Shown here: positions 6,452-25,046 of the stretch, piece by piece
Layout: every line of letters starts with the position of its first letter
How positions within the stretch are numbered: position 1 is the first letter of the stretch
Assembly (NCBI GenBank): GCA_018815555.1
Contig: JAHIWF010000270.1
Location: forward strand, 1-33,924
From: Spirochaetota bacterium
GTDB taxonomy: Bacteria; Spirochaetota; Spirochaetia; Treponematales; UBA12059
Length of the DNA stretch: 33,924 nucleotides
Direction of reading: 5' to 3'
Notes under the pieces: generated by a model
Seen by the model: only the letters and a program-made list of their open reading frames with translations
The model's database searches: none
What the model was told of the DNA's origin: nothing
Made by a program: the position numbers and the translations under genes

Positions 6452-6486
6452 CGGCAGTCTATCTGCCGGCGCGCTTGTCTTTTTTG
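6452..6486 (+). terminator. Weak terminator candidate after panD
   Basis: CGGCAG (6452-6457), loop TCTAT and CTGCCG form a short hairpin starting at the panD stop. A six-T run (6480-6485) follows only after an 11-base gap, so termination is probably incomplete. Confidence 0.35.
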
Positions 6487-6505
6487 CGCTACAACGATAG
6501 TATGG

Positions 6506-6544
6506 GGCCTGTGGTTGGTTGAATTTTGCAACTAACTACAGGCC
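6506..6544. promoter_or_regulatory. Operator-like long dyad before the ROK kinase gene
   Basis: A 16-base arm (6506-6521) and its partner (6529-6544) match at 14 of 16 positions around a 7-base centre. The core GTTGGTTG-N7-CAACTAAC (6514-6536) occurs identically at 10899-10921 next to the ROK repressor gene, apart from the N7. No T-run follows, so an operator fits better than a terminator. It lies just upstream of the candidate kinase promoter. ROK repressors bind dyads of this general size; the assignment to the nearby repressor is inference. Confidence 0.7.
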
Positions 6545-6548
6545 TGAC

Positions 6549-6577
6549 TTGTATCCGGGGTTAGGCTGGAAGATAAT
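6549..6577 (+). promoter_or_regulatory. Candidate promoter of the ROK kinase-GNAT pair
   Basis: TTGTAT (6549-6554, 3 of 6), 17-bp spacer, GATAAT (6572-6577, 5 of 6). A second AT-rich -10-like stretch (TATATAAC) lies a few bases downstream, so the exact element is uncertain. The operator-like dyad ends five bases before the -35. Confidence 0.4.
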
Positions 6578-6611
6578 TTGTATATAACATACCTGAAAGC
6601 AGGAGTTGATT

Positions 6612-7580
6612 GTGGAACATTATCTAGGCATGGATCTCGGCGGCACCGACGTAAAGATGGGTGTGGTGGACAGTAACGGTACGATAGTCGTCAAGCAGAG
6701 TTATCCGACGCCCGTAGGCCTTGCTGGCGACAAGCTGGCTGATTATTTTGCCGAGTGCATGCGCAAGACTGCGGCCGCGGCCGGCCTGCGCCTGGAAACG
6801 TTGGCCGCGGCCGGTATCGGCGCTCCCGGCCTGGTCAATACTACCACTGGCATTCTGGATTTCGTAACCAATATCCCCTCCCTGAATGATTATCCGCTTG
6901 GTCCGCAGATGGCCAAACGTCTGAACATTCCGGTGGCAGTGGATAATGACGTGAATGCCATGGTGCTTGCCGAATTGTATTATGGAGCAGCCAGATCGTA
7001 CCGCAATATTGTAGCCCTTACCGTCGGTACTGGAGTGGGCGGCGGTCTGATCTTTAACGGTCAGCTGTATCGCGGCTCGTCTTTTGGTGCCGGCGAAATC
7101 GGCCACATGAGTATTGAGACCAATGGTCCCTTATGTAATTGCGGTAATTATGGCTGCCTGGAGCGCTATATCGGGCGTGAGGCGATTGTAGCCCGTTTTG
7201 ATGCCTTGTACCGTCATAAAAAGCTGCCCAGCAGCATCGACCGGCATCTGGAGCAAGGCGCGATAACACCACGAGCCATAGCCATGGCAGCGGCTGAAGG
7301 CGACGAGCTGTCCCTGTTTGTGATGGACGAAATCGGCCGCTACCTTGGTAATGGTTTGGCCACTATAGTGAATATTTTGAACCCGGAGCTGATTGTAATC
7401 GGCGGCGGCATAGCCAATGCCGGCGAGTTGCTGCTGGAGCCGGCAAGGCGCGAGATGTTCCGCCGGGCGGCGGTAATGCCGGCGCGCATGGTCAAAGTGG
7501 TTCAGGCAAAATTTCTTAACGACGCCGGAATCCTCGGCGCGGCTTCTTTGGCCCGGGAGGGCTCTGACCGGACCGATTAA
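6612..7580 (+). CDS. ROK-family sugar kinase (glucokinase / N-acetylglucosamine kinase type)
   Basis: 322 residues from the GTG at 6612, six bases after CAGGAG; a TTG at 6606 is in frame but abuts the binding site. The ATP phosphate loop MDLGGTDVK is at the N-terminus, followed by GIGAPGLVN, the catalytic DNDVNAMVLAE, VGTGVGGGLI, then GEIGHMSIE and the zinc signature CNCGNYGCLE, and a C-terminal IVIGGGIA adenosine loop. Unlike the repressor at 10982 it has no DNA-binding domain and keeps all kinase motifs. It phosphorylates a hexose at O6. The neighbours nagA and nagB make GlcNAc the best guess, with glucose or mannose as alternatives. It shares an operator-like site with the repressor region. 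Confidence 0.88.
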   Translation: MEHYLGMDLGGTDVKMGVVDSNGTIVVKQSYPTPVGLAGDKLADYFAECMRKTAAAAGLRLETLAAAGIGAPGLVNTTTGILDFVTNIPSLNDYPLGPQMAKRLNIPVAVDNDVNAMVLAELYYGAARSYRNIVALTVGTGVGGGLIFNGQLYRGSSFGAGEIGHMSIETNGPLCNCGNYGCLERYIGREAIVARFDALYRHKKLPSSIDRHLEQGAITPRAIAMAAAEGDELSLFVMDEIGRYLGNGLATIVNILNPELIVIGGGIANAGELLLEPARREMFRRAAVMPARMVKVVQAKFLNDAGILGAASLAREGSDRTD

Positions 7581-7595
7581 AAAGGAGAACACGCC

Positions 7596-8258
7596 ATGCA
7601 CATACGCGATTACCATCCAGCCGACCTGCCCTGGCTCTATCATATCTGCCTGAAAACCGGTTTGTCGGGTCAGGATGCCACGACGCAGTTCAGCGATCCG
7701 TATCTGCTTGGAGCAGTGTGGGCGGCTCCGTATGCCCAATACAACAGCCGTGCCGTATTGATACTCGAAGAGGCCGGGCAGCCGCTTGGTTATATTCTTG
7801 GTACACCAGACACGGCTGCTTACAGCGTCTGGGTGGAGGCAGCCTGGCTGCCCCTGCTGCAGCAGCGATATCCGGTGCCTGAAGCCGCAGAGCTCAACAA
7901 GGCCAGTTCCGCCAGCGGACTATCCCCGCGGGAACTTGCCCTGCGGCAGCTGCTGTTTAGCCAGCGCGACCAGGATTCGTGGCAGGTGGACTATCCGGGG
8001 CATCTGCATATCGACATTTTGCCGGCCGGGCAGGGCGGCGGTTGGGGCCGTAAACTGATGGATGCATACATGCAACGCTTGCACGAACTGGGCTGCCCGG
8101 CAGTGCAGCTGGGCGTAGCCCGTGAAAACAGCGGCGGGGTGCGCTTTTATGAACGCTACGGCATGTCCCGGCTGCATGAGGACGCGTGGACCATCTATTT
8201 CGGCTGCCAGACTCGTCGGCCGGTTTCGGAGTCAGACCTCAGGGTATCTGGGGCCTGA
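7596..8258 (+). CDS. GNAT-family N-acetyltransferase
   Basis: 220 residues, ATG at 7596 after AAAGGAG. The GNAT fold appears as an N-terminal MHIRDYHPADLPWLY, a central strand HIDILPAGQGGGWGRKLM that provides the acetyl-CoA pyrophosphate loop, then GVARENSGGVRFYERYGM. The whole outline (ICLKTGLSGQDAT, then PYLLGAVWAAPYA) recalls the acetyltransferase-like family related to the C-terminal domain of O-GlcNAcase; this is from memory and needs a search. It is probably co-transcribed with the ROK kinase 15 bases upstream and converges on the GH2 gene with only 16 bases between stops. Acceptor unknown; an amino sugar is a reasonable guess from context. Confidence 0.8.
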   Translation: MHIRDYHPADLPWLYHICLKTGLSGQDATTQFSDPYLLGAVWAAPYAQYNSRAVLILEEAGQPLGYILGTPDTAAYSVWVEAAWLPLLQQRYPVPEAAELNKASSASGLSPRELALRQLLFSQRDQDSWQVDYPGHLHIDILPAGQGGGWGRKLMDAYMQRLHELGCPAVQLGVARENSGGVRFYERYGMSRLHEDAWTIYFGCQTRRPVSESDLRVSGA

Positions 8259-8274
8259 TCTCGAAAGCCGCCAC

Positions 8275-10824
8275 TTAGAAGCTGGCTTGCAGGTGCATAA
8301 AGCGCAACCGGGAGGCAAGATCGCCGGGCTTGAGCACAGGCTCGGCGACAGTCCCCGATGCTGCCGTTGCCACTTCGGTTCCCGTACCCGCTAAGAATTC
8401 CACCCGCTTTTGCATTCCCGGCAGCAGCAGGAAGCCGGCGTCACTGAAGTTTCCTGGCAGGCCTTCGGCCTGTGCCGTTACATAAAAGGCCGGCCGGCTG
8501 CATGAAACCGTAAAGGCGGCACTGCCGTCGGCCGTCAGCTCCCAGCTAAGTTCAGGATCAGGCAGTTCACAGCGTTTCGGCTCGGCGATGAAAGACCAAG
8601 CCGGCTCCGTTTGCTCGAGGCTATGCGCAGTGCTGTCTGGCGCTTCAGGTTCCAGCTCGGCAGTAATAAAACATTGCTCCGCCGGCAGCGGCAGTTCGGC
8701 ATCAGTGCGGCTCCAGATTTCCAGGCCCAATGGGCCGCATATGGTACCCTGCAGCGTTTCGCTGTAGGCAATGCTGCCATCGAAGCGGCGCAGGCAGACC
8801 CTTACCGTCCAGGCCGTTTCAGCCTTGCTTTCGTGCGTCATGAACACCCGGGTGCAGCCGTCTTTACGGGTAATGAGCGGCCGGGTGGGGCTATAAAAAC
8901 GACGGGCAGCGTGGTGCAGCAGTTTCCAGAATCCACCATATTCGATGCTGGACCAGCTGGCGCAGGGCCATACATCATTCAGCTGCCAGTACAGGGTTCC
9001 CATGCAGCGCGGCATAGTGCTGCGCCAATGGTCTACCGCCGTCTGAATGGCCATGGCCTGCTGCACCTGCGACAGATACACCGTTTCGGCAAAACCCTTG
9101 GGCATGCGGAAATGCTGCAGCATGGTGCCCAGTATCAGCTCGTTGCCGCGCGGATGCCGCTGGTGGTGCTCCATGACCGGACTTGTTATATTTAAATCAC
9201 TTTCTTCCAGAACCGTGCGCATGGTCGGTATGGACGAAAAAGACTGGAAGCCGAATTCAGAACAGAAGCGCGGATTGATGTCCAGATAGGCACTGAAGGG
9301 TTTGCCCTCATGCCAGACCGCCCAGTAGTGCATGTCGCCGGAAGCGTCCGAATGCCAGTTGTCCGAATAGTCGTCCGGTCCGGCCGAAGGCGAACTTGGC
9401 CACCAGGGGCGCGACGGGTCAAGCTGGCGGACGGTGCTGCCGATAACGCCTTCGTTCAGCCGGTCGTAGTCCACCAGGTAACGGGCCGGGCTGCTGCGCG
9501 ATTCTTCGAACCAGTTGATGGCGCCAAGATCCTCATTGTTGCCGCACCAGAGCATGATGGCCGGATGGTCCATCAGCCGCGGAATCTGATGTTCCAGCTC
9601 GCTGCGCACATTTTCCAGAAAATCGCTATTCGACGGGTAGGTGGCACAACCGAACATAAAGTCCTGCCAGACCATCAGACCATGCTGGTCGCAGTAATCA
9701 TAAAAGAAATCGCTTTCATAGCGGCCGCCGCCCCAGACCCGTATCATGTTCATGTTGGCGGCCAGCGCGCTGTCCAGCAGCTGCTGTATTGTGGCTTCGG
9801 TCCAGGCGGATGGCAGAGCGTCGGCCGGTATCCAGTTAGCGCCTTTGGCAAAAACCGGCACCCCGTTTACCACAAAGGTCATGGCCTTGCCGCCCAGATC
9901 GGCGCTGGTGTCGATATGCACCGTGCGGAAGCCGATGTTTTTTACAAGGTGCTGGATAGTTTTGGGATCGCTTCCGGTTGACTTGGGGGCTATCAGGCTA
10001 ACGCTGGCCTCGTGCAGGGCAGGACGGCCATAGCCGGCCGGCCACCACAACTCCGGCGCTTCTATCTGCAGCTCCAGCGCCTGTTTCGTCGCCCCCGCCG
10101 GCAGTTCCAGGCGCACCCGCCGCTCCAGCCCGCAAAGCCGGAACACGATTTCCACCTCCGCCGGCCGGCTGCATTCCAGCCGCAGGTCTGCCCGCACCGT
10201 CCAACTGCCGTCGCCGGCGGCTGTGGAAACGAAATTCGCGGCGTCCAGGCGGGGTCCGCTCCAGGCCAGCAGCCGGATTCCTCCATATATGCCGCCGGTC
10301 ATCAGACAGGGCCCCCAGTCCCAGCCGGACATGTATTGCGACTTGCGCACCAGGTTGCGGTGCGGCGAATGCACCGGGTAGGCCGAGGCCGGATAGTTGC
10401 AGGGCAGTATTTCGGCAGCGGCGGCGGCCGCCTTTACCGGGGATAGGATTTCTACGCACAGCCGGTTGGGCCCACTTTGCAGCAGCTGGCCGATCGGTAG
10501 CTGCAGGCCGGTAAACATGTTCTGGCCGCTGCCGGCCGGCTTTCCGTTGATGCTGATGCGGCCGAAGGTATCGAGGCTGTCTATCTGCAGTACTATCGAG
10601 TCCGCTGCCGCCAGCAAGTGGTCAAGCTGAAATTCGGACTCCAGTATCCAGTCTGCTTCGCCGATCCACTGCAGCTCCAGTTCGTTGAGCCCCTGGTAGG
10701 GTTCGGCAATAATGGAGGCTTCTTGCAAGGCGCTGATGATGTCTCCGGGGATGAAAATGGGACAGCTGATATTTCGGGCGGGACAGGACAGGGTCCAACG
10801 GCCGCCCAGATTGATCTGCTTCAT
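8275..10824 (-). CDS. Beta-mannosidase, glycoside hydrolase family 2
   Basis: 849 residues with the family's domain order: N-terminal jelly roll with DWGPCLMTGGIYGGIRLL, an immunoglobulin-like domain, a TIM barrel from about 300 to 610, and C-terminal beta domains. The acid/base Glu is at about 431 in WCGNNED and the nucleophile Glu at about 523 in CSEFGFQSF. NMIRVWGGGRYE and VWQDFMFGCATYP are typical of beta-mannosidases rather than beta-galactosidases. No signal peptide, so it acts in the cytoplasm on imported oligosaccharides, removing terminal beta-mannose, for example from Man-beta-1,4-GlcNAc. The start has CAGGAGG six bases before it. It is transcribed divergently from the ROK repressor through overlapping promoters. 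Confidence 0.93.
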   Translation of the reverse strand: MKQINLGGRWTLSCPARNISCPIFIPGDIISALQEASIIAEPYQGLNELELQWIGEADWILESEFQLDHLLAAADSIVLQIDSLDTFGRISINGKPAGSGQNMFTGLQLPIGQLLQSGPNRLCVEILSPVKAAAAAAEILPCNYPASAYPVHSPHRNLVRKSQYMSGWDWGPCLMTGGIYGGIRLLAWSGPRLDAANFVSTAAGDGSWTVRADLRLECSRPAEVEIVFRLCGLERRVRLELPAGATKQALELQIEAPELWWPAGYGRPALHEASVSLIAPKSTGSDPKTIQHLVKNIGFRTVHIDTSADLGGKAMTFVVNGVPVFAKGANWIPADALPSAWTEATIQQLLDSALAANMNMIRVWGGGRYESDFFYDYCDQHGLMVWQDFMFGCATYPSNSDFLENVRSELEHQIPRLMDHPAIMLWCGNNEDLGAINWFEESRSSPARYLVDYDRLNEGVIGSTVRQLDPSRPWWPSSPSAGPDDYSDNWHSDASGDMHYWAVWHEGKPFSAYLDINPRFCSEFGFQSFSSIPTMRTVLEESDLNITSPVMEHHQRHPRGNELILGTMLQHFRMPKGFAETVYLSQVQQAMAIQTAVDHWRSTMPRCMGTLYWQLNDVWPCASWSSIEYGGFWKLLHHAARRFYSPTRPLITRKDGCTRVFMTHESKAETAWTVRVCLRRFDGSIAYSETLQGTICGPLGLEIWSRTDAELPLPAEQCFITAELEPEAPDSTAHSLEQTEPAWSFIAEPKRCELPDPELSWELTADGSAAFTVSCSRPAFYVTAQAEGLPGNFSDAGFLLLPGMQKRVEFLAGTGTEVATAASGTVAEPVLKPGDLASRLRFMHLQASF

Positions 10825-10866
10825 GAAGCCTCCTGTAAAAGTAGCAAAAATTCGTCAAAAAAATTG

Positions 10867-10895
10867 TTGACAGCCTGATATACCCATGTTATACC
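10867..10895 (+). promoter_or_regulatory. Strong sigma-70 promoter of the ROK repressor and sugar operon
   Basis: TTGACA (10867-10872, 6 of 6), exactly 17 bp, then TATACC (10890-10895, 4 of 6). Transcription should start near 10902, inside the operator-like dyad. No other good promoter or terminator is seen until after nagB apart from internal hairpins, so it may drive the whole operon. Confidence 0.7.
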
Positions 10896-10916
10896 TTAGT
10901 TGGTTGGATAAATCAA
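10888..10916 (-). promoter_or_regulatory. Divergent promoter of the beta-mannosidase gene
   Basis: Reading the minus strand: -35 TTGATT (10916-10911), 17-bp spacer, -10 TATAAC (10893-10888, 5 of 6). It overlaps the plus-strand promoter's -10 region, and the operator-like dyad covers its spacer and -35. Confidence 0.6.
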
Positions 10917-10921
10917 CTAAC
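10899..10921. promoter_or_regulatory. Operator-like dyad in the divergent promoter region
   Basis: GTTGGTTG (10899-10906), seven bases, CAACTAAC (10914-10921). A longer TTAGTTG...CAACTAA dyad overlaps it. The half-sites are the same as in the dyad at 6514-6536. A repressor bound here would block both divergent promoters. Binding by the adjacent ROK protein is inferred. Confidence 0.7.
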
Positions 10922-10934
10922 CGAGAGCGATTAT

Positions 10935-10963
10935 TTCCTGCCGCAGGGCCAGTGCGGCAGGAA
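10935..10963 (+). promoter_or_regulatory. Leader hairpin before the ROK repressor gene
   Basis: TTCCTGCCGCA (10935-10945) and TGCGGCAGGAA (10953-10963) form a perfect 11-bp stem with a 7-base loop, ending 18 bases before the start codon. There is no T-run. It could stabilise the mRNA, restrict translation of the repressor, or be a second DNA operator. Confidence 0.6.
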
Positions 10964-10981: not shown

Positions 10982-12091
10982 ATGACGACGATACCAAAGA
11001 ATTCGGCAGCCGCGCGCATCCTCAGGTGTATCTGGAAGCACCCGCGCAGCAGTCGTGTCGTCATTGCCGACCGGCTCGGTCTGGACAAATCTACGGTAAC
11101 CAATCAGGTAAGCAATCTTATCGGCAAGGGTATCATAGAAGAGATCGAAGAGGGAGAGTCTTCGGTTAAGGGCGGCCGCAAGCCGATTCACCTTGGCATC
11201 TGTAAATCCTACGGACGGATTTTGGGCATAGAGCTGCAGGCAAAGTCCTGGGTAGCGCTGGAAGTAGATCTTGCCGGCAATATTCTGGCCGAGCGCCGCG
11301 GCAAGTGCCATGTGAACGCTGATAATTTCGTTGATATTGTGCAGTCCATTACTGCCGAGAGCCATACCAGCGTGGAAAACGGTTTCGGACCGCTGCTTGG
11401 TGTGGGCGTTGGTACCGGCGGTCTGATCGACAGCAAGCAGTGCCGGATTCGTTATTCGGTTCCGCTGGCTATTTATAATCCGCTGGAGCTGGCCGAACAG
11501 TTCGCCTTTAAGATTCCAGTGCCCTGTTTTGTGGAAAACGATGCGAATTGTTGTGCCTGGGGCGAGCTGGCTTTTGCCCGCAGCGACGATCCGCGTAACT
11601 TTATCTTTGCACTAGTGGAATACCGGCCGGATGTTGAGGCTGTACATACCCATGGCGGTATCGGTGTCGGTTTCGGCATTGTGCTGGGCGGAAAAGTATA
11701 TATGGGTTCGCACGGAAATGCCGGTGAGTTCCGCAGTGCTTTTTGTGACGGTTCGGGGGCCGCCCAGTTTTCGCTGCCGGCCCAGGATCTAGCCCGGGTA
11801 TTCAATGACCGCGAGGTGCTGGAAAAAGTCTGTGACGAATTCTCGCGTAATCTTGCCCTTCTGGTTAATACTATGGATTTTGAGCACATTTTTATCGGCG
11901 GCGATATCGAAGAACCCGGCATTGATTTTTTGTCCATGCTGCGCCGCCGTCTGGAAGAAAACTGGATGTATCCCTTTCCCAAGAATATCGAGATACGCTA
12001 CTCGAGTCTTGGCGGCCGGGCGGTTGCGTACGGTGCCGCCGGCATGTTGCTGGACAAACTGTTCAGCGAAAATCTGCTGCACGATTTCTGA
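10982..12091 (+). CDS. ROK-family transcriptional repressor
   Basis: 369 residues. The N-terminal 80 form a winged helix-turn-helix: ILRCIWKHPRSSR, then DRLGLDKSTVTNQVSNLIGKG and a wing ending GGRKPIHLGI. The rest is a ROK sugar-binding fold with ENDANCCAWGE and GGIGVGFGIVLGGKVYMG, then HGNAGEFRSAF. The CxCGxxGC zinc motif found in ROK kinases is absent, and the phosphate loop (ILGIELQAKSW) is degenerate, so it should sense sugar but not phosphorylate it. NagC, Mlc and XylR are the precedents. It lies at the head of the sugar operon beside a matching dyad, so autoregulation is likely. An ATG at 10982 is chosen because the helix-turn-helix begins right after it. Confidence 0.9.
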   Translation: MTTIPKNSAAARILRCIWKHPRSSRVVIADRLGLDKSTVTNQVSNLIGKGIIEEIEEGESSVKGGRKPIHLGICKSYGRILGIELQAKSWVALEVDLAGNILAERRGKCHVNADNFVDIVQSITAESHTSVENGFGPLLGVGVGTGGLIDSKQCRIRYSVPLAIYNPLELAEQFAFKIPVPCFVENDANCCAWGELAFARSDDPRNFIFALVEYRPDVEAVHTHGGIGVGFGIVLGGKVYMGSHGNAGEFRSAFCDGSGAAQFSLPAQDLARVFNDREVLEKVCDEFSRNLALLVNTMDFEHIFIGGDIEEPGIDFLSMLRRRLEENWMYPFPKNIEIRYSSLGGRAVAYGAAGMLLDKLFSENLLHDF

Positions 12092-12182: not shown

Positions 12183-13496
12183 ATGAAGAGACTCTTGTTT
12201 GTCCTGCTGGCCCTTGCCATGGTTCTGCCGGTTTTTGCCGCCGCAGAAAAAGACCAGGCCGCCGAAGGCCCGATCACCCTGCGTGTTCTCAACTACGCAG
12301 ATGCCACCACTCCCGCGTATGCCGTGGAAAAAGAAATCTGGGATACATTCCGGGCACAGAACCCCGACATTGTCCTGGAATACGAGGAATTGTTTGATGA
12401 GGCTTTCCATACCAAGACAGAAGCTTACGCCGCAGCCGGTCGTCTTCCCGATGTCATGTTCATGTGGCCGTCCGGACGTTCTAGCACTTTGTACAACCGC
12501 AACCTGGTAAAAGACCTTACCCCGCTGATGGCCCCGGTTAAGAATGAATTCGTTCCGATCGCCACCAGTCCCGGGCAGTTCGGCATCCTTGGCCAGATTC
12601 CCCAGTCTACTACCAACACCCATGTGTTGTATGCCAACCTCGGTCTGCTGAAGAAGCTCGGTCTGTCCGAGCCTAAAACATATGCCGATCTGGTAGCCAT
12701 GGTTCCGGCTGCCCGCGCCGCCGGTGTAGAAGTGGTTTTAATTCCCGCCAAATCCGACTGGGTCATGCAGTCCTGTCTGTTCTCGATGGTACTCGGTCGT
12801 ATCGCTGGTGATGAATTCATCAATGACGTACTGGCTGGAAAAGCCAACTTTACCGACAAACCCTTCGTTGATTCACTTGCCTTTATTAAGCGCCTGTATG
12901 ACGATGGTGTTATTTCCCGCACAGCCCTGCAGATTGATTACGGCGAAGGCCCCGCTCTGTTTGCCAGCGAAAAATCGTTGTTCTACATTGACGGCGCTTG
13001 GCGCGTTGGTGAATTTATCACCAGCCCCGATTCCGGTGTGGCCCTCATTCCGCCGGCCAAGCAGCAGAGTGATTTCAAACTCATGAATTTCCCGGTTATC
13101 CCCGGTGAAAAGAATGCCAATTCCAGCTCTGTTATCGCCGGTACCGGTTTTGGTATGAATGCCAACATCGAAGCTGGTTCAGCTAAAGAAGCTGCCGCCT
13201 GGAGACTGATAAGCTATCTTAACAGCGCTGAAGTTCTCAAGAAGCGCCTGGAGACCGGTGCCTTCTCCAATGTTACCCGCATCGGTGTTACCGCTTCCAA
13301 GATGGAGCCCTTGCAGGTTATGAACGCCCAGCTGGCTCCGGCCAAGGCAACCTACGTGGTTGATGGTATTCTTGATGCCTCTGTATATGGTCCGATCAAC
13401 ATTGGTCTGCAGGAAATGGCACTTGGTACCGCAACTCCCGAGCAAGTGGCTCAGACTACCCAGAAAGCTTTTGAAGAATGGGAAATCAGCAACTAA
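12183..13496 (+). CDS. Sugar ABC transporter solute-binding protein (family 1)
   Basis: 437 residues with a clear cleaved signal: basic MKRL, a hydrophobic run, and VFAAAEKD. No lipobox cysteine is present, so it is probably free in the periplasm. The mature part resembles family 1 binding proteins for oligosaccharides (FRAQNPDIVLEYEE, PDVMFMWPSG, SLFYIDGAWRVGEF, AAAWRLISYLNS). AGGAGG lies five bases before the ATG. It is followed by a strong hairpin and then two permease genes. The ligand is not readable; the downstream GH1, GH20, nagA and nagB suggest a beta-linked oligosaccharide containing GlcNAc. Confidence 0.92.
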   Translation: MKRLLFVLLALAMVLPVFAAAEKDQAAEGPITLRVLNYADATTPAYAVEKEIWDTFRAQNPDIVLEYEELFDEAFHTKTEAYAAAGRLPDVMFMWPSGRSSTLYNRNLVKDLTPLMAPVKNEFVPIATSPGQFGILGQIPQSTTNTHVLYANLGLLKKLGLSEPKTYADLVAMVPAARAAGVEVVLIPAKSDWVMQSCLFSMVLGRIAGDEFINDVLAGKANFTDKPFVDSLAFIKRLYDDGVISRTALQIDYGEGPALFASEKSLFYIDGAWRVGEFITSPDSGVALIPPAKQQSDFKLMNFPVIPGEKNANSSSVIAGTGFGMNANIEAGSAKEAAAWRLISYLNSAEVLKKRLETGAFSNVTRIGVTASKMEPLQVMNAQLAPAKATYVVDGILDASVYGPINIGLQEMALGTATPEQVAQTTQKAFEEWEISN

Positions 13497-13515
13497 GCTG
13501 ACAGCTTTATTCGAT

Positions 13516-13542
13516 AACCGCCGGCCAATTTGGCCGGCGGTT
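13516..13542 (+). terminator. Strong intercistronic hairpin between binding-protein and permease genes
   Basis: AACCGCCGGCCA (13516-13527) and TGGCCGGCGGTT (13531-13542) form a perfect 12-bp stem with a 3-base loop, 20 bases after the binding-protein stop. Only CTTTACCC follows, so read-through is likely. Such elements commonly protect the upstream mRNA and lower permease expression. Confidence 0.65.
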
Positions 13543-13598
13543 CTTTACCCGCTACACTGTTTCTTGCCAGATTTTATTTAGGGTACAGGGGGAGACCA

Positions 13599-14507
13599 AT
13601 GAGACAATTGACCGGAACGCTGGAAAGAAAACAGGCTTATCTGCTTCTTGTACTGCCGGCTGTAATGATATATTTTGCTGTTATTGCATTCCCGACTATT
13701 TTTTCCATCGTATTGAGTGTGTCCAATTATCAGGGCGGCGCTGTATTTGGCGAGAAAGCGAATTGGTCACTGGTTGGATTTAAACATTATTTACGAATGT
13801 TCAAGGACCAGTACTTCTGGATTTCCTTCAAAAACAATATCTGGATCATGCTTATGTCATTGTTTATCCAGATTCCTTTAGGTTTTGTGCTTGCTTATAC
13901 TATCTTTCGAAAATTGATCGTCGGCCGTGAATTCTTTCAAACGGTCATCTATATGCCTACGATTATCTCGGTTATTGTTGTCGCCATTCTGTGGCAGAGT
14001 ATTTTCTCGCCCTATGGACCGGTTACCTCGTTCATGCGCATGTTCATTCCTGGTTGGGAAAACAAACTGGTAAGCCATCCACAGCTGGCCATTGTTCCAG
14101 TACTGTTCGTCATGGTCTGGTACTATACCGGAATGTACCTGATAATCTTTTTGGCCAACCTGCAGAAGATTGACCAGCAGGTAATTGAATCGGCCCAGAT
14201 CGACGGCGCAAATGAGTGGCAGATGCTGAAAGCTATAATCCTGCCGGCCCTCTCTGGGGTAATCGTAACTACCGCCATCCTGGCCATTTCCGGCTCTTTA
14301 CGCAGTTTCGGTCTGATATGGGCCATGACAGCCGGAAACCCGGCGCGTCGTACTTCGGTGCTTGCCTTGTACATGTATGATAACGCCTTTAAAGGTGCCC
14401 CTAACTTTCCGCTGGCCAACGCCATATCTACCTTCATGGTTACGGTTAGTTTTGTATTCATTGTCATAGCCAAGAAGATAGAAAAACGCTTCGGCGGCAA
14501 GGAGTAA
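13599..14507 (+). CDS. Sugar ABC transporter permease (CUT1, MalF/UgpA type)
   Basis: 302 residues from the ATG at 13599, preceded by GGGGGAG; an earlier in-frame start at 13530 would lie within the hairpin and is rejected. About six membrane helices, starting with AYLLLVLPAVMIYFAVIAF. The ABC-coupling EAA loop is QVIESAQIDGANEWQMLKAI. It pairs with the next permease four bases downstream. No ATP-binding subunit is encoded in the operon, so a shared MsmK-type ATPase elsewhere in the genome is probably used. Confidence 0.92.
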   Translation: MRQLTGTLERKQAYLLLVLPAVMIYFAVIAFPTIFSIVLSVSNYQGGAVFGEKANWSLVGFKHYLRMFKDQYFWISFKNNIWIMLMSLFIQIPLGFVLAYTIFRKLIVGREFFQTVIYMPTIISVIVVAILWQSIFSPYGPVTSFMRMFIPGWENKLVSHPQLAIVPVLFVMVWYYTGMYLIIFLANLQKIDQQVIESAQIDGANEWQMLKAIILPALSGVIVTTAILAISGSLRSFGLIWAMTAGNPARRTSVLALYMYDNAFKGAPNFPLANAISTFMVTVSFVFIVIAKKIEKRFGGKE

Positions 14508-14510
14508 ATC

Positions 14511-15374
14511 ATGACACAGATACAACCAATGCTAAAGCCGAAGCTTTCTATCGGGGCAATTATCGCCCGTGTGCTATTGGTGGCAATATTGATCGGCTTT
14601 ACCGTAATGACGATATATCCCATCATATGGCTGATCATCAACTCGTTTAAAACCAGCAAGGAATTTCAGATGAACCGTCTGGGCTTGCCAATTGCCCCGA
14701 CTTTTATCAATTATCCGCAAGCCTGGAAAATTGGTAACTTCAGCATGTTGTTCGTTAACAGTATCTTCTATACCGGCGTTGCCACCCTGGCAATCGTTAT
14801 ACTGTCGCTTTCAACCTCCTTTGCTTTTGCAAAAATTCAATCTAAGGCAACCAAGCCTCTGTACAACTCGTTTGTTATAGGAATATTGCTTGCGCTCGAG
14901 TCGATTATGGTTCCGTTGTTTATCATGTCGATTGTTACCGGTGTGTATGATACGCGCATAGGAATTCTTATTCCGTATATCGGACTGGGTTTGCCGATCG
15001 GGGTATATTTGGGTACTGAATTTATTAAAAGTATTCCCGACGCGCTTATAGAATCTGCCCGTCTGGAAGGTGCCAGCTACCTGCGTATTTTTTTCAGCAT
15101 CATCCTGCCGATGTGCATTCCGGTCGCTATGACTCTGGCTATTCTTACAGTTACCTCTCTTTGGAACGAGTTTATGCTGGTAAACATTCTGGCTTCACGT
15201 GAGTCGCTTAAAAGTCTGCCGGTCGGCATACTCAAGTTTTCCGGCTCATTGGCTTCGGATTACGGCAAGCAGTTTGCAGCCCTGGTTATCGGAATGTTGC
15301 CGATGCTGATTTTCTATTTGTCCTTCCGCAAGCAGATTCAGCGTGGTCTGGCTGCCGGCGCGGTTAAGGGCTGA
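14511..15374 (+). CDS. Sugar ABC transporter permease (CUT1, MalG/UgpE type)
   Basis: 287 residues with six predicted helices and the MalG-like opening (MTIYPIIWLIINSFKTSKEF). The EAA loop is ALIESARLEGASYLRIFFSI. The ATG at 14511 follows AAGGAG closely behind the previous stop. It forms the transmembrane channel with the preceding permease. The glycosidase gene begins four bases after its stop, which ties transport to cytoplasmic hydrolysis. Confidence 0.92.
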   Translation: MTQIQPMLKPKLSIGAIIARVLLVAILIGFTVMTIYPIIWLIINSFKTSKEFQMNRLGLPIAPTFINYPQAWKIGNFSMLFVNSIFYTGVATLAIVILSLSTSFAFAKIQSKATKPLYNSFVIGILLALESIMVPLFIMSIVTGVYDTRIGILIPYIGLGLPIGVYLGTEFIKSIPDALIESARLEGASYLRIFFSIILPMCIPVAMTLAILTVTSLWNEFMLVNILASRESLKSLPVGILKFSGSLASDYGKQFAALVIGMLPMLIFYLSFRKQIQRGLAAGAVKG

Positions 15375-15378
15375 CGGA

Positions 15379-16710
15379 ATGGCATTATTGGAAAGCAGGC
15401 TCAAGTCTCCGGATTTCCTCTGGGGAGTTTCCAGCTCTGCTTATCAGATAGAAGGCTCGGTGCTGGCCGACGGACGCGGTGAATCGATCTGGGACAGTTT
15501 TTGCCGCCTGCCGGGCAAGGTAAAAAATGGTGATACCGGAGCTTATGGCAGCGACTCGTATGTACGCTGGCAGGAAGATGTGGACATGCTGCACGAGCTG
15601 GGAGCAGGTGCCTACCGTTTTTCTATAGCTTGGCCGCGCATCAAACCCGATGGATCCGGAGCGGTTAATCATCGCGGTTTCGGCTATTATCATCGCCTTA
15701 TCGAGGAGTTGTTGGCCAAAGATATCGAGCCGTGGGTTGCCTTGTATCACTGGGATCTGCCGCAGGCACTGCAGGATCGTGGCGGTTGGCTGAATCGCGA
15801 TACCGCCTTCTATTTTGCCGATTACGCCGAGCTATGCTTCCGTGAATTCGGCGGTCTGGTAAAAAACTGGGTTACCTTAAACGAGCCCTGGTGTTCGGCT
15901 TTTCTGGGCCATGGTGTCGGTGTACATGCTCCTGGCCTGGTCGATGTACAGGCCCCTTTTACTGCTGCACATCATCTGCTGCTGGCCCATGGGTTGGCGG
16001 TAAAAGAGTGCCGTGAGCTGCTGCCTGCGGCCCGTATCGGCATTGTCTTAAACCCTTGGACGCCCCGGTCTGCCACTGCCCGTGACGAGGACAAGCAGGC
16101 AGCCTTGCTGGCTTCAGTTGAACGAACCGGCCTCTGGTGTGATCCTTTGTTTAACGGGCAGTATCCGGAGGCCTATTGTGAAGCGGCCGGAGCCAAACTG
16201 CCGATACTGCCGGGTGATATGGCTTTAATCAAGGCTCCTTTGGATTTTCTTGGTATCAATTACTATAATGAGGATGCGGTATGTGCCGCTCCGGCACAAG
16301 CTGCCGGGTATAAAAATGTCCCTACCTGGCAGAAAAAGACCGAAATGCAATGGGATATTGTCCCTGACGGCCTGGTGCGGGTGCTTTCGTTCATGTCGGA
16401 ACACTGGAAGGTTCCGGAGTATTATATAACTGAAAATGGCGCGGCATTTTCTGATTCTGATACAGACGGCAAAGTTATCCATGATAATGACCGAATAGAA
16501 TATTTACAGGATCATGTGCTTGCTGTTCAGAAAGCCTGCGAGCTTGGCCTTCCGGTAAAAGGTTACTTTGTCTGGACTATGCTGGATAATTTTGAATGGT
16601 CTCATGGCTACGAAAAACGCTTTGGTATGGTTGCTATAAAACAGCCCGAAGGTGAGCGGATCAGGAAAAGCAGTTTCTATTTTTATCGTGACCTTATCGC
16701 TGGCTATTGA
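15379..16710 (+). CDS. Beta-glycosidase, glycoside hydrolase family 1
   Basis: 443 residues, the usual length. The start is the ATG at 15379, four bases after the permease stop; translation then enters FLWGVSSSAYQIEGS at once. The acid/base Glu169 is in LNEPW and the nucleophile Glu352 in YITENGAAF; LYHWDLPQAL and WTMLDNFEWSHGYEKRFG complete the family signature. There is no signal peptide and no 6-phospho-specific phosphate-binding tail that I can recognise, which fits an ABC rather than PTS route. Family members cleave beta-glucosides, beta-galactosides or beta-mannosides; the exact substrate is open. Confidence 0.93.
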   Translation: MALLESRLKSPDFLWGVSSSAYQIEGSVLADGRGESIWDSFCRLPGKVKNGDTGAYGSDSYVRWQEDVDMLHELGAGAYRFSIAWPRIKPDGSGAVNHRGFGYYHRLIEELLAKDIEPWVALYHWDLPQALQDRGGWLNRDTAFYFADYAELCFREFGGLVKNWVTLNEPWCSAFLGHGVGVHAPGLVDVQAPFTAAHHLLLAHGLAVKECRELLPAARIGIVLNPWTPRSATARDEDKQAALLASVERTGLWCDPLFNGQYPEAYCEAAGAKLPILPGDMALIKAPLDFLGINYYNEDAVCAAPAQAAGYKNVPTWQKKTEMQWDIVPDGLVRVLSFMSEHWKVPEYYITENGAAFSDSDTDGKVIHDNDRIEYLQDHVLAVQKACELGLPVKGYFVWTMLDNFEWSHGYEKRFGMVAIKQPEGERIRKSSFYFYRDLIAGY

Positions 16711-16797
16711 GTTAATAATACGGGGTGGCTGGAGCCCTGTGGTTTCAGTATAATCAGTGCCCTGCAGGATGCCGGTTTTCGGCTGGAGGTTTTTAAC

Positions 16798-18315
16798 ATG
16801 TACGGATTAATTCCGGCTCCCGTCTCTGTTGAAGTTTCAGAGGGGCATTGCCTTATTGGCTGCCTTCCTGGCTTTGGCTATGAAAAACAATTTGAGCCCG
16901 AGGTTTCGGTGGTGGCTTCCTGGTTGGCCCAGCAGCTGCCAAAGACGATACCAGAAGAATATCGTCAGGCTGATATAATTTCGATAAATGTGTATAACGA
17001 TCTTGTTAAAGGCGGGACTGAGGCCTACAAGCTGTTTATCCGTCCGACGGTTATCGAGATACACGTTGCTTCGGCTGCCGGTGTTGTGAGGGCTGGCGCT
17101 ACCCTGGCCCAGCTGGTCTCGGCGCATGGCTGCCGGCTGCCCTGCCTTTCGATCGAAGACCAGCCGCGTTATTCCTGGCGTGGTTTTATGCTTGACACCG
17201 TGCGCAACTTTTTCAGTGTCGACTTTATCCTGCGTCAGTTGGATCTGGCAGCCTTGCACAAGCTTAACATGTTTCATTGGCATCTAAGTGATGACCAGGC
17301 CTGGCGCCTGGATCTGGAAGAAATGCCAGAGCTGGCTGCGCATGGTGCTCAGCGTCTGGATCGACGTTTTAATGTAGTAAAATGGAAGGGTGGTTCCTAT
17401 AGCGCGGCTGATGTTCGCCGTGTTGTAGAGTTTGCTGCTTCTCGCCATATTTCTGTCATTCCCGAGATAGATGTGCCCGGCCATTCCAGTGCACTGCTGG
17501 CTTCCCATCCGGAGCTCTGGTGTCGCTCCGCACATGATGACCGGCATTTCCTGCCCGAAGACCGTTACGGAATTTTTGATGCGGTGCTCTGTGCCGGCCG
17601 AGACGAAAGCCTGAACCTGGTCGGCCGGGTATTTTCTGGATTGTCCGGACTATTCCCGGGCAAGTACCTGCATGCCGGGGGCGATGAAGTACCTAAGGAA
17701 CAGTGGCTGGTCTGCGAACACTGCCGGGCAAGGATGCGCGACGAAGGTTTACAGGACAAGCATGGCAATTTTGATCCGGAGCGCCTGCAGGCCTGGTTCA
17801 TGGAACAGGTGCAGGTGGGCATCAACGGATTGGGTCGCACCATGGTGGGCTGGGACGAGCTGGTGGACGGCGGCTGCAGTCGTGATGTTTTGATCATGGC
17901 CTGGCGCAGTACCGGCCACGGCGCAAAAGCTGCCGAGCTCGGTTATAAAGTTGTAATGTGTCCGCAGAACAAAGCTTGCTACCTGGATCATAAACACCTG
18001 GATCTGGAAGAAGAACCCGGGCAGCTGGGTATCTGTACGGTGCGTGATGCTTATGCTTTCGATCCACATCCCGAAGGGCTCTCCGCCGCCGCCGCCGCCA
18101 ACATCCTCGGCGGTCAGGCCAATCTCTGGACCGAGCTGGTGTATTTCGGCAAGCAGGCCGAATATATGCTGTACCCCCGCCTCAGTGCCATCGCCGAGGC
18201 CCTGTGGTCGCCTAAGGCCGTCAGAGATTTTGCTTCCTTTGCCAGTCGTCTGGAACTGCACGGCCGCTTTTTGGACCGCCTGCAGGTAAACCGATATCGC
18301 GGACCCTTGGAGTAA
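16798..18315 (+). CDS. Beta-N-acetylhexosaminidase, glycoside hydrolase family 20
   Basis: 505 residues. A small N-terminal GH20b domain (about 1-115) precedes the TIM barrel, which begins at PRYSWRGFMLDTVRNFF. FHWHLSDDQAW, PEIDVPGHSSALL and the catalytic pair Asp296-Glu297 in HAGGDEVPKEQW are present; GGQANLWTELV near the end shapes the sugar pocket. It removes terminal beta-GlcNAc or GalNAc by substrate-assisted catalysis. No signal peptide, so it works on imported chitobiose-like or N-glycan-derived oligosaccharides. TGGAGG stands about ten bases before the ATG. The next gene, nagA, starts one base after its stop. Confidence 0.95.
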   Translation: MYGLIPAPVSVEVSEGHCLIGCLPGFGYEKQFEPEVSVVASWLAQQLPKTIPEEYRQADIISINVYNDLVKGGTEAYKLFIRPTVIEIHVASAAGVVRAGATLAQLVSAHGCRLPCLSIEDQPRYSWRGFMLDTVRNFFSVDFILRQLDLAALHKLNMFHWHLSDDQAWRLDLEEMPELAAHGAQRLDRRFNVVKWKGGSYSAADVRRVVEFAASRHISVIPEIDVPGHSSALLASHPELWCRSAHDDRHFLPEDRYGIFDAVLCAGRDESLNLVGRVFSGLSGLFPGKYLHAGGDEVPKEQWLVCEHCRARMRDEGLQDKHGNFDPERLQAWFMEQVQVGINGLGRTMVGWDELVDGGCSRDVLIMAWRSTGHGAKAAELGYKVVMCPQNKACYLDHKHLDLEEEPGQLGICTVRDAYAFDPHPEGLSAAAAANILGGQANLWTELVYFGKQAEYMLYPRLSAIAEALWSPKAVRDFASFASRLELHGRFLDRLQVNRYRGPLE

Positions 18316-18316
18316 A

Positions 18317-19504
18317 ATGATGAGCGCAGTTCCCGGAATCTGTTTGCACAATGCTACTCTTCTGGCTGGCTATGCCCAGATGGATCGTTGTGCCGTATAC
18401 ATAGAAGACGGCCGGATTGCCGATGTATTTTCCGAACGCCGGTATCAGAAGAAGACCTTTCACCCTTCGGTAAAGCAGATCGATGTGCATGGATCCTTCG
18501 TGGCACCGGGTTTTATCGACACCCATATACACGGCTTTGCCGGCTACGGCACCGAGGACAAATCGGTAGAGGCAATCCTGGCCATGTCGGTGGAACTGGG
18601 ACGTTTTGGCGTAACCAGTTTTTGCCCCACCATCTATCCTATGACCGTTGCCGATATGGAGGCATCCATTACGGCCTGTGTAGATGCCATGGGGCACGAG
18701 CGCGGCGCGCGTATAGCCGGCGTGCATCTGGAGGGACCTTTCATTTCGCCGCAGCGCCTGGGAGTGCAGAATCCGGCACATATCAAAGCGGTGGATATGG
18801 AGTTGATGGAACGTCTGCATGCGGTTGCCCGCGGCAATATTTGCAATATGACGGTAGCTCCAGAGCTAAAGGGCATGCGCGAGCTGGCCCTGTTCTGCAT
18901 CTCGCACAATATTGTGCTGCAGGCCGGCCACACCAATGCCACCTACGAAAACATGCTGGAAGGCATGCAGGCCGGCATTCTGCATTCAACCCACTTTTTT
19001 AACGCCATGAGCCGGCTGCATCACCGCGACCCTGGAGCGGTGGGGGCTATCCTGATTCATCCGGAATTGTCCTGCGAGATTATCGCCGATGGTAAACATG
19101 TGCACCCGGATTTGATCCGCCTGCTGATGCGCGACAAACCCCAGGACAAGGTGGTCCTGGTTACCGATGCCCTTAAGCCGACCGAGCAGCATGCCTGCAT
19201 TCTGTACGCAAATAACGAGGAAGTTGAATTTGTGGACGGCCTGTTCCAGCGTAAGAGCGACGGTGTTATTGCCGGTTCGGCGCTGACTATGATACGCGGC
19301 GTGCAAAATCTGGTAGAATGGGGTGTGCCGCTGCAGCAGGCGGTAAAGTTTGCCTCGGCCAATCCGGCCAAGATCATGCAGCTGGGCAAACGCGGACAGC
19401 TGGTGCCCGGCCATGAAGCCGATATCGTTGTCTTTAACCAGAGCTTCGATATTCAGGCGGTATTGCGCGCCGGTTGTTTCATCCGCAACGAATTAGCTGA
19501 GTAA
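18317..19504 (+). CDS. nagA: N-acetylglucosamine-6-phosphate deacetylase
   Basis: 395 residues; two consecutive ATGs (18317 and 18320) could start it. It removes acetate from GlcNAc-6-P to give glucosamine-6-phosphate. Amidohydrolase motifs: APGFIDTHIHG with the HxH metal pair, HLEGPFIS with the metal Glu, QAGHTNATYE and THFFNAMSRLHHR with metal His residues, and the catalytic Asp in LVTDALKP. HxH suggests a two-metal enzyme like the Bacillus type. It is tightly linked to the hexosaminidase before it and nagB after it. The substrate should come from the ROK kinase at 6612. Confidence 0.96.
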   Translation: MMSAVPGICLHNATLLAGYAQMDRCAVYIEDGRIADVFSERRYQKKTFHPSVKQIDVHGSFVAPGFIDTHIHGFAGYGTEDKSVEAILAMSVELGRFGVTSFCPTIYPMTVADMEASITACVDAMGHERGARIAGVHLEGPFISPQRLGVQNPAHIKAVDMELMERLHAVARGNICNMTVAPELKGMRELALFCISHNIVLQAGHTNATYENMLEGMQAGILHSTHFFNAMSRLHHRDPGAVGAILIHPELSCEIIADGKHVHPDLIRLLMRDKPQDKVVLVTDALKPTEQHACILYANNEEVEFVDGLFQRKSDGVIAGSALTMIRGVQNLVEWGVPLQQAVKFASANPAKIMQLGKRGQLVPGHEADIVVFNQSFDIQAVLRAGCFIRNELAE

Positions 19505-19534
19505 AATATTGCATGATTCCATTTGGAGGATATT

Positions 19535-20425
19535 GTGAGACTTGTTGTACGAAGCGACTATGAAGCTGTTTCCGATTGGGCCGCCCGCTATCTGGCCGCC
19601 CGCATTAAAGCCAAACGGGAGGGGGAGCGCGCAGCAACAGCGGCCGGAAACCCTGCGGCCAGTTCTCCGGCGGCTGGAAACCAGGCAACCGGTACCCCGG
19701 CGGCCGGCGCGGCATCCTTTGTTTTGGGCCTTCCCACCGGATCTACTCCCATAGGCATGTACCGTCGACTGGTAGAGCTGCACAAGGCCGGTGAGCTTTC
19801 CTTCGCCGATGTGCGCAGCTTTAATATGGACGAGTATATCGGCCTACCTGAGGACCATCCGCAGAGCTACCACAGTTTTATGCGCCAGCATCTGTTCGAC
19901 CATGTGGACATTCCTGCTGGCAACTGGCAGCTGCCGGACGGAAACGCCGCCGATCTGCAAGCCGAATGCGAGCGCTATGAGGCTGCAATCGTGGCGGCCG
20001 GCGGCATAGACCTCTTTGTCGGCGGTGTAGGCGTGGATGGCCATATTGCCTTTAACGAGCCGGGTTCTTCCCTGGCCTCACGTACCAGGATCAAAACTCT
20101 TACGCGCGATACCCGCGAGACCAACGCCCGTTTCTTCGGCGGCAAGACCGAGGCTGTACCGGCTACCGCCTTGACCGTCGGCGTCGGCACCATCATGGCC
20201 GCGCGCGAAGTGCTTATTCTGGTAAGCGGCGCGTCCAAGGCGCGGGCACTGCGCCATGCCATCGAAGAAGGCGTAAACCATCTGTGGACCTTCTCCTGTC
20301 TGCAGCTGCATCCCAAAGGCATCGTCGTGTGCGACGAAGATGCCACGGCCGAGTTGCGGGTCGGCACGGTTCGCTATTTTAAGGAGATTGAAGCCAGTAA
20401 TCCAACGATCCACCTTCCCCTATAA
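19535..20425 (+). CDS. nagB: Glucosamine-6-phosphate deaminase with repeat insertion
   Basis: 296 residues from the GTG at 19535, which has TGGAGGA four bases before it. It isomerises and deaminates glucosamine-6-phosphate to fructose-6-phosphate and ammonia. Hallmarks: [41 protein letters not shown] (catalytic Asp-His-Glu), SRTRIKTLT and the allosteric-site-like C-terminal region. Compared with E. coli NagB as I recall it, an Ala/Pro/Gly-rich insert of about 27 residues sits between the first helix and the first core strand (residues 30-61). It is coded by a decayed 30-bp tandem repeat and should form a surface loop. It ends the operon before a strong terminator. Confidence 0.96.
19640..19717 (+). 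repeat. Decayed 30-bp tandem repeat within nagB
   Basis: Units begin at 19640, 19670 and 19700. The first two match at about 22 of 30 positions and open with GCGGCYGGAAACC; the third is partial. They encode [20 protein letters not shown] and AAGAAS. The period is a multiple of three, so the frame is kept. Confidence 0.8.
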
Positions 20426-21627: not shown

Positions 21628-22797
21628 ATGCTGCTTATCAAAAACGTCCTAGTGTATGATCCGGCTCCTGCGGGTCTCTGCGATATACTTATTGCCGGCG
21701 GCCGTATCGAGGCTGTTGCCGCCGGTCTGGCGGCCTCGCTGCCGCCCGGACTTTGCAAGATAATCGAAGGGGAAGGTCTGACGGCCGTTCCCGGCTTTAT
21801 AGACGCACATGTGCACATAACCGGCGGCGGCGGCGAGGGTGGTTTCCGTACCCGTACTCCGGAGCTTACCCTGGGTGGTGCCATCCGGCATGGTGTTACC
21901 ACGGTAATCGGGGTTTTGGGCACCGACGGCGTAACGCGTAGCCTGCCTGCCTTGGTGGCCAAAGTGTATGCGCTACGCGAAGAAGGCTTGTCTGCCTGGT
22001 GCTATACCGGCTCGTATCACGTGCCGGTGCCTACGCTAACCGGCGACATCATGAAAGACATCATGCTGATAGACCCGGTAATCGGCGTGGGTGAAGTTGC
22101 CTTGTCTGACCATCGCTCCAGCCAGCCGACGCAGGCGGAGCTGGCTCGTCTGAGCAGTGACGCCCGGGTGGCCGGCATGCTTTCCGGCAAGGCTGGCGTG
22201 GTCAATCTGCATCTTGGCGATGCTCCGGCCGGAATGCGCATGCTGCGCGAGCTATGTGCCAGTAGTGAACTGCCCTTTGATCAGTTTATTCCTACTCATT
22301 GTAACCGCAATCTGCAGCTTTTTGCCGAGGCTCTGGATTGGCTGCGGATCGGCGGCAATGTTGACTTTACCGCCAGTTCAAACGAAAGTATTCTGGAGGA
22401 TGGCGAATTAAGTGCGGCTGCCGCCCTGTTTCAGGTGCATGCGGCTGGTTTAAGTCTGGAGCGGGTCAGCATTACCAGTGACGGCCAGGGCAGCCTGCCA
22501 GTTTTTGACAGTCAGGGGCGTCTAAGCGGTCTGGATGTGGGAAACTGCGGCAGTCTGTTTGCGGCGCTGCGCGAGGCTGTGCAGCAGTTTGGCCTGCCGC
22601 TGGAGTCGGTTTTGCCAGTGCTAAGCGCCAATCCGGCGCGCATGCTGAAACTTGCCGGCAAGGGGCGCTTACAGGCCGGAATGGATGCCGACCTGCTCTT
22701 GCTGGACCAGGATCTGCAGTTGCGCAGTGTAATGGCCGGCGGCCGGCTTATGCTGCATAATGGAGCACAGCTGGTGCGCGGAACCTTTGAGTCGTAA
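21628..22797 (+). CDS. iadA: Isoaspartyl (beta-aspartyl) dipeptidase
   Basis: 389 residues, almost exactly the E. coli IadA length, and alignable by eye from end to end. It hydrolyses beta-aspartyl dipeptides such as beta-Asp-Leu or, in cyanophycin users, beta-Asp-Arg. Motifs: GFIDAHVHITGGGGEGG with metal His61 and His63, the gating Tyr in SYHVPVPTLTG, LSDHRSS with the substrate Arg, PTHCNRN, and the catalytic Asp285 in TSDGQGS. Where E. coli IadA has its carboxylated bridging Lys (IGVKCAISDHRS) this protein reads IGVGEVALSDHRS, so Glu156 probably bridges the metals. Its promoter is sigma-54 type. The activator gene follows after 15 bases. Confidence 0.94.
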   Translation: MLLIKNVLVYDPAPAGLCDILIAGGRIEAVAAGLAASLPPGLCKIIEGEGLTAVPGFIDAHVHITGGGGEGGFRTRTPELTLGGAIRHGVTTVIGVLGTDGVTRSLPALVAKVYALREEGLSAWCYTGSYHVPVPTLTGDIMKDIMLIDPVIGVGEVALSDHRSSQPTQAELARLSSDARVAGMLSGKAGVVNLHLGDAPAGMRMLRELCASSELPFDQFIPTHCNRNLQLFAEALDWLRIGGNVDFTASSNESILEDGELSAAAALFQVHAAGLSLERVSITSDGQGSLPVFDSQGRLSGLDVGNCGSLFAALREAVQQFGLPLESVLPVLSANPARMLKLAGKGRLQAGMDADLLLLDQDLQLRSVMAGGRLMLHNGAQLVRGTFES

Positions 22798-22812
22798 TGG
22801 AAATGGGGGATC

Positions 22813-24951: not shown

Positions 24952-25007
24952 TTGGATAAATAGGTTTATTAGAATCCCGTATAGCCAAATTAACCATATT
25001 GCAAAAG

Positions 25008-25036
25008 CTGGTATGTACGGTACCAGTATTTTATCT
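25008..25036 (+). other. Inverted repeat and T-rich stretch before the cyanophycinase gene
   Basis: CTGGTA (25008-25013) and TACCAG (25021-25026) are separated by 7 bases and followed by TATTTTAT. The 95-base gap around it is clearly more AT-rich than its surroundings. It may be a weak terminator after the activator gene or an operator; no convincing sigma-54 site is present. Confidence 0.35.
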
Positions 25037-25046
25037 CGGAGGTTTC

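Follow-up and report, generated by a model that had tools for sequence, protein, structure and literature searches.

We identify a pair of inverted-repeat elements that are very probably the operators of a ROK-family repressor encoded next to one of them, and that would together define a small, local regulon for the uptake and breakdown of beta-linked mannose and GlcNAc oligosaccharides. Both lie in a 33,924-nucleotide contig (the window), which is contig 232 of a spirochaete assembly comprising 415 contigs and 3.66 Mb and estimated to be 96% complete. The result gives a clade of ROK proteins that recurs in uncultured spirochaetes related to Treponema and Spirochaeta a predicted cognate operator and its first predicted regulon; in the literature searched, we found no earlier description. 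It further predicts a role for a hitherto unassigned kinase, whose gene lies behind the first of the two elements. Moreover, it offers some 30 naturally occurring versions of a compact two-way promoter that has a single repressor site, as material on the control of bidirectional promoters, which has been described as hardly studied (PMC12825309).

Two dyads that travel with a ROK repressor

The dyad, GTTGGTTG-N7-CAACTAAC, occurs twice in the window, in each case as a putative operator to which no strand is assigned: at 6514-6536, upstream of a ROK sugar kinase gene (site 1; GTTGGTTGaattttgCAACTAAC from 6514), and at 10899-10921, between the repressor gene and a divergently transcribed GH2 beta-mannosidase-type gene (site 2; GTTGGTTGgataaatCAACTAAC from 10899). 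The preliminary description had reported two dyads with the same half-sites and unlike centres, one before the ROK kinase gene and the other in the mannosidase/repressor promoters; its coordinates and sequences are exact and its placement agrees with the gene map, except that the inverted repeat at site 1 continues outward to cover 6506-6544. The 8-bp arms are the same at both sites and the 7-bp centres differ (aattttg at site 1, gataaat at site 2). The fourth position of the arm is R, with G opposite T, and hence the complementarity of the arms is imperfect.

With up to three mismatches allowed, five matches to the dyad are found in the window against 0.21 expected in shuffled sequences, and none of the shuffles reached five. 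A genome-wide scan for the dyad, as had been proposed in the preliminary description, recovered exact copies of GTTRGTTG-N7-CAACYAAC in the 3.66-Mb assembly solely at sites 1 and 2, and just two further places at up to two mismatches. At up to three mismatches the same genome has no excess of dyads over a reversed control (20 vs 23), and the search for a larger regulon by this means likewise returned no excess beyond the two sites. One further place (C198:39512) was set aside, as it lies inside a long open frame that appears chemoreceptor-like by eye. Given the low expectation in the window and the two exact copies in the genome, we take the pair to be real and specific. There is next to no chance that it is a functionless chance repeat or a recent duplication: the presence of just two copies in the genome might be read that way, but against this stand the 0.21 matches expected in the window at three mismatches, the strong conservation across species described below, and the fact that sites 1 and 2 differ in centre and flanking sequence, which argues against recent duplication.

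The adjacent repressor gene (10982-12091, forward strand) codes for a protein with the domain architecture of ROK repressors, namely an N-terminal winged HTH followed by a ROK sugar domain, with Pfam matches to ROK (2.5e-21), HTH_24 (6.3e-09) and MarR (3.4e-07). A Gly/Arg-rich linker follows the HTH, reading GGRKPI in the window protein and containing GGR in nearly all aligned homologs. The alignment also indicates that the sugar domain has retained the ENDAN motif and lost the zinc cysteines, the position of the CXCGXXGCXE-type zinc motif being occupied by AGEFRSAFCDGSG in the window protein. Its nearest relatives of solved structure are XylR (4ija, the best match) and 2hoe. A further mark of ROK repressors, a dyad at their own promoter that is conserved in orthologs, is also present.

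We collected orthologs of this repressor from 39 relatives and added those of named spirochaete assemblies, which comprised Spirochaetaceae, Treponema, Rectinema subterraneum and numerous MAGs. Thirty-two of these share at least 45% identity and have sufficient upstream DNA; with the outer base of the dyad left free, it is present upstream without mismatch in 18 of the 32, with at most one mismatch in 28 and with at most two in 30, whereas dinucleotide shuffles of the same 32 upstream regions gave means of 0, 0 and 0.06, respectively. Of 31 distant ROK genes, with identities below 38%, just one has the dyad. Thus, the dyad tracks the orthologs of the very ROK repressor that had been singled out as the candidate binder by its adjacency (28/32 at up to one mismatch vs 1/31). 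Furthermore, a matrix built solely from the sites of other species gives both window sites a score of 25.6 out of a possible 28.3.

A strict form of the pattern searched across 394 genomes of the order matched 27 places in 25 genomes, compared to 2 for the reversed control. Nineteen of these matches lie between an orthologous ROK repressor gene and a divergent GH2 beta-mannosidase gene; two adjoin a more distant ROK gene together with a binding-protein gene; two are upstream of GH130 genes, one is upstream of a GH94 gene, and one is site 1 itself. The dyad is thus not widespread in unrelated places, a prospect that the preliminary description had raised against its own reading, as 25 of the 27 strict matches are beside a ROK repressor or before sugar genes of the matching kind. 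The two strict dyads lacking an evident link of this type (L194:1501-1523 and L205:1501-1523) have no ROK or sugar gene nearby, and no repressor homolog was found in either genome; they are due to chance or to another regulator. A genome of the same genus (G001) has no repressor ortholog, and its sole one-mismatch match (L058) is without sugar-gene context.

A predicted two-way promoter at site 2

Alignment of the orthologous regions on the dyad revealed, at fixed distances from it, TTGAC[A/G]-N17-TATA on the repressor strand and TTGAT[T]-N17-TATA on the opposite strand. In the window, the predicted promoter of the repressor operon (10867-10895, forward strand) comprises TTGACA at 10867-10872, a 17-bp spacer and TATACC at 10890-10895, and its distance to the dyad is kept in nearly all aligned orthologs. 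The predicted promoter of the GH2 gene (10888-10916, reverse strand) has its -35 element, TTGATT, at 10916-10911 and its -10 element, TATAAC, at 10893-10888, again with a 17-bp spacer, and the same spacing recurs in nearly all aligned orthologs. A single TATA box is therefore common to both predicted promoters, and the features that define a bidirectional promoter, namely opposed -35/-10 pairs spaced by 16-18 bp with overlapping -10 elements, are seen in the window and in nearly all aligned orthologs. The dyad begins 3 bp past the -10 element of the repressor operon, and the -35 element of the opposing mannosidase promoter falls within its right half. Strict sigma-70 and terminator scans returned nothing, site 2 being missed because its -10 boxes end in C, and the ortholog alignment was more informative. 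The minus-strand promoter usually scores 8 of 12 in the aligned orthologs; its -35 is independently supported by the AAAT of the centre alone, as its TTG is needed by the operator and its TATA box by the other promoter.

This AAAT, the right half of the centre, is conserved in orthologous site-2 regions and has no mirror image on the left; it is missing at site 1 and altered at the GH94 site, neither of which faces such an opposing promoter. Hence, these patterns are most simply read as conservation of the site-2 centre on account of the -35 element rather than of the repressor. The preliminary description had taken the variable centre as a sign of protein binding: the centre does differ between the two window sites, but in the orthologs of site 2 it is partly conserved, probably as the holder of the divergent -35 element.

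Site 2 might be viewed as a bidirectional promoter that is both conserved and regulated, with one ROK operator in a double role: it would block the start of the repressor-transporter operon and would itself provide the -35 element of the opposing beta-mannosidase promoter, while the shared TATA box would let polymerase fire in only one direction at a time. We offer this as a tentative proposal, for which the odds are somewhat less than even. If true, synthesis of the repressor and importer would compete with that of the enzyme, even once the system is induced. A recent study of bacterial bidirectional promoters by Warman et al. (2026) described them as pseudo-symmetric DNA, in which promoters on opposite strands share a -10 element and can compete for polymerase (PMC12825309). 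The window differs in that its predicted promoter takes the -35 element for one direction from a repressor operator, an arrangement kept in some 30 species; it is a useful case of a strictly conserved repressor site inside a bidirectional promoter, and not a new principle.

Between the operator and the start codon, the leader of the repressor operon contains a perfect 11-bp inverted repeat (TTCCTGCCGCA / TGCGGCAGGAA) at 10935-10963. A different strong hairpin is present at a similar position in L027.

Site 1 and the ROK kinase gene

At site 1 the inverted repeat is extended by GGCCTGT at 6506-6512 and ACAGGCC at 6538-6544 (6506-6544 in all, no strand assigned), and if transcribed on the plus strand it would form a 17-bp RNA stem of -29.1 kcal/mol with a z-score of -8.1, which has no comparative support. 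This raises the alternative that site 1 is a structured RNA, a hairpin in the kinase leader with a role in stability or attenuation, and that it resembles site 2 partly by coincidence; besides the extended arms and the strong fold, it can draw on the fact that both mismatches become G-U pairs on the plus strand. Nevertheless, we regard it as very improbable, because there is no U-run for a terminator at site 1, no credible Rfam match was obtained, and arms of this sequence are also found ahead of unrelated genes. Extending the RNA reading to the pair was likewise rejected: the asymmetry of GTTGGTTG and CAACTAAC allows G-U pairing on the plus strand only, yet the orthologs of site 2 are mostly symmetric as DNA and at the GH130 sites the asymmetry is reversed relative to the gene, with the result that the strand logic expected of an RNA fails.

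Returning to site 1 as an operator, the gene downstream of it (6612-7580, forward strand) codes for a ROK sugar kinase (Pfam ROK, 1.2e-68) lacking an HTH, whose closest NCBIfam model is TIGR00744, below the cut-off of that model, and whose nearest relatives of solved structure are glucokinases. The annotated open frame begins with TTG at 6606; GTG at 6612, which is preceded at six bases by AGGAG (6601-6605), appears the more likely start. A tentative promoter recognized by eye, TTGTCT-N17-TAGTAT (6475-6503, forward strand; 8 of 12 to consensus), ends 10 bp upstream of site 1. A second candidate, TTGTAT-17-GATAAT, lies downstream at 6549-6577 and would place the dyad upstream of its -35 element. 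Both are weak, and the promoter scan listed neither of the two; we prefer the former, as the dyad would then cover the start region as it does at the GH130 and NagB-like targets discussed below.

The best match of this kinase in 393 genomes of the phylum has about 40% identity, and as the gene is not kept in the relatives they have no orthologous site 1. For this reason, the case for site 1 as an operator is made solely by its sequence identity and its uniqueness in the genome. Even so, it is probably through site 1 that a ROK sugar kinase joins the GlcNAc/mannoside regulon. In several relatives (G006, G025, G021, G022, G038 and G028) nagA is adjoined instead by an unrelated, standalone kinase of the PF01869 family: in G006 (G006:C41:98493-100829) this kinase, which is closest to a MurNAc/GlcNAc kinase, occupies 98493-99386 beside nagA at 99672, and in G025 the corresponding locus is G025:C156:19201-21414. 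In the 96%-complete assembly containing the window no standalone PF01869 kinase was seen, the family being represented by fused proteins of 887 and 1461 aa, and the standalone form is likely absent from this genome. Given this distribution, the ROK kinase may, despite its closest resemblance being to glucokinases, have taken over the GlcNAc-kinase step and been set under the same operator.

Predicted regulon and relation to known ROK systems

The GH2 gene divergent from the repressor (8275-10824, reverse strand) is recognized by the Pfam domains Glyco_hydro_2_N2 and Ig_mannosidase, and its place is kept in most of the orthologous loci. On the other side, the repressor gene is followed on the forward strand (12183-20425) by genes for a sugar-binding protein, two permeases, GH1 and GH20 enzymes, nagA and nagB, as assigned by family matches; from their close same-strand spacing, the repressor, transporter, GH1, GH20, nagA and nagB genes probably constitute one operon. 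The order GH2 / ROK-SBP-permease-permease-GH1-GH20 is preserved in most orthologous loci. In the 39 relatives, a scan at up to one mismatch revealed no separate dyad for nagA. As for the dyads elsewhere, the GH94 protein has chitobiose phosphorylase as its nearest solved relative and the GH130 proteins have 4-O-beta-mannosyl-glucose phosphorylase. At three additional loci (L118:131, L119:3747 and L120:2912) the same arms precede a NagB-like gene that is followed by genes for a ROK repressor, 30-31% identical to that of the window, and a ROK kinase, indicating that this type of operator extends beyond the ortholog group. The sites before GH94, GH130 and the NagB-like/ROK/ROK-kinase operon are consistent in their sugar theme.

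Placement of the dyad over a start region or a -35 element fits repression, and classical repression with release by sugar is the most likely mode of action. We infer that in the absence of the sugar a repressor dimer would occupy site 2, covering the -35 element of the divergent beta-mannosidase gene and, in the other direction, the region where transcription of the repressor-transporter-GH1-GH20-nagA-nagB operon would start, such that one site would close both directions and the repressor would be autoregulated; bound at site 1, it would close the ROK kinase gene. The ABC transporter is predicted to import the sugar in unphosphorylated form, and once a monosaccharide has been set free in the cell, the kinase would phosphorylate it for use by NagA and NagB. 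Release of the repressor would be brought about by a sugar, for which the most likely candidates are beta-linked disaccharides such as Man-GlcNAc or chitobiose and the monosaccharides that compose them. Apart from the compact two-way promoter, which is unusual, the system is of an ordinary kind, namely ROK-regulated glycoside utilisation.

The closest parallel in operator layout is the XylR/xyl system of Bacillus and Paenibacillus, which likewise combines a ROK repressor with a divergent promoter region, an N7 spacing and outer arms of the TTNG type (PMC9104551). However, the XylR operator is GTTT-N7-AAAC (PMC9104551), whereas the half-sites of the window read GTTG-N7-CAAC, with G/C in place of T/A at the innermost base, and its two sites are associated with beta-mannosidase, GH1, GH20, ABC transporter and nag genes rather than with xylose genes. 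This innermost base also bears on the possibility that a different ROK protein in the cell is the main, or an additional, binder of the dyads, for example the paralog encoded on contig C366 (G000:C366, ORF from about 5771). This paralog is 32% identical to the window repressor and has just upstream a XylR-like dyad of its own, GTTAGTTTATAATGTAAACCAAC (G000:C366:5722-5744 = L004:1501-1523), which differs from the window operators symmetrically at the innermost base; moreover, XylR of P. polymyxa reportedly tolerates variation at the fourth base of GTTT (PMC9104551). We nevertheless judge such cross-binding to be quite improbable, as the GTTG form goes with orthologs of the window repressor rather than with more distant members of the family, and in some 30 species site 2 directly precedes the gene of this repressor itself. 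Thus, a single base may separate the regulons of the window repressor and the C366 paralog within one cell.

In regulon content the window resembles Thermotoga maritima, where ManR (mannoside) and ChiR (chitobiose/nagAB) are local, autoregulated ROK repressors of operons with ABC transporters, ManR responding to mannose and ChiR to chitobiose but not to GlcNAc (PMC3750489). Compared by regulon content only, the window differs in having both gene sets under one repressor and in its GH2 and GH20 enzymes. E. coli NagC and Mlc are likewise ROK repressors with an N-terminal HTH, and the window repressor weakly matches NagC. However, its scores of 83.9 of 650 bits for NagC and 45 of 530 bits for Mlc are far under the NCBIfam cut-offs; moreover, it lacks the zinc-binding cysteines, and its regulon is local and not global. 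As the features tested for XylR, NagC and Mlc are absent, we classify the system as a ROK repressor regulon distinct from all three.

Farther downstream in the window, the region 21628-26255 codes for an isoaspartyl dipeptidase (TIGR01975), a sigma-54-type regulator and a cyanophycinase (TIGR02069, above the cut-off), followed by an oligopeptide-type ABC system. From these family matches, it is probably a cluster for the use of cyanophycin and isoaspartyl dipeptides.
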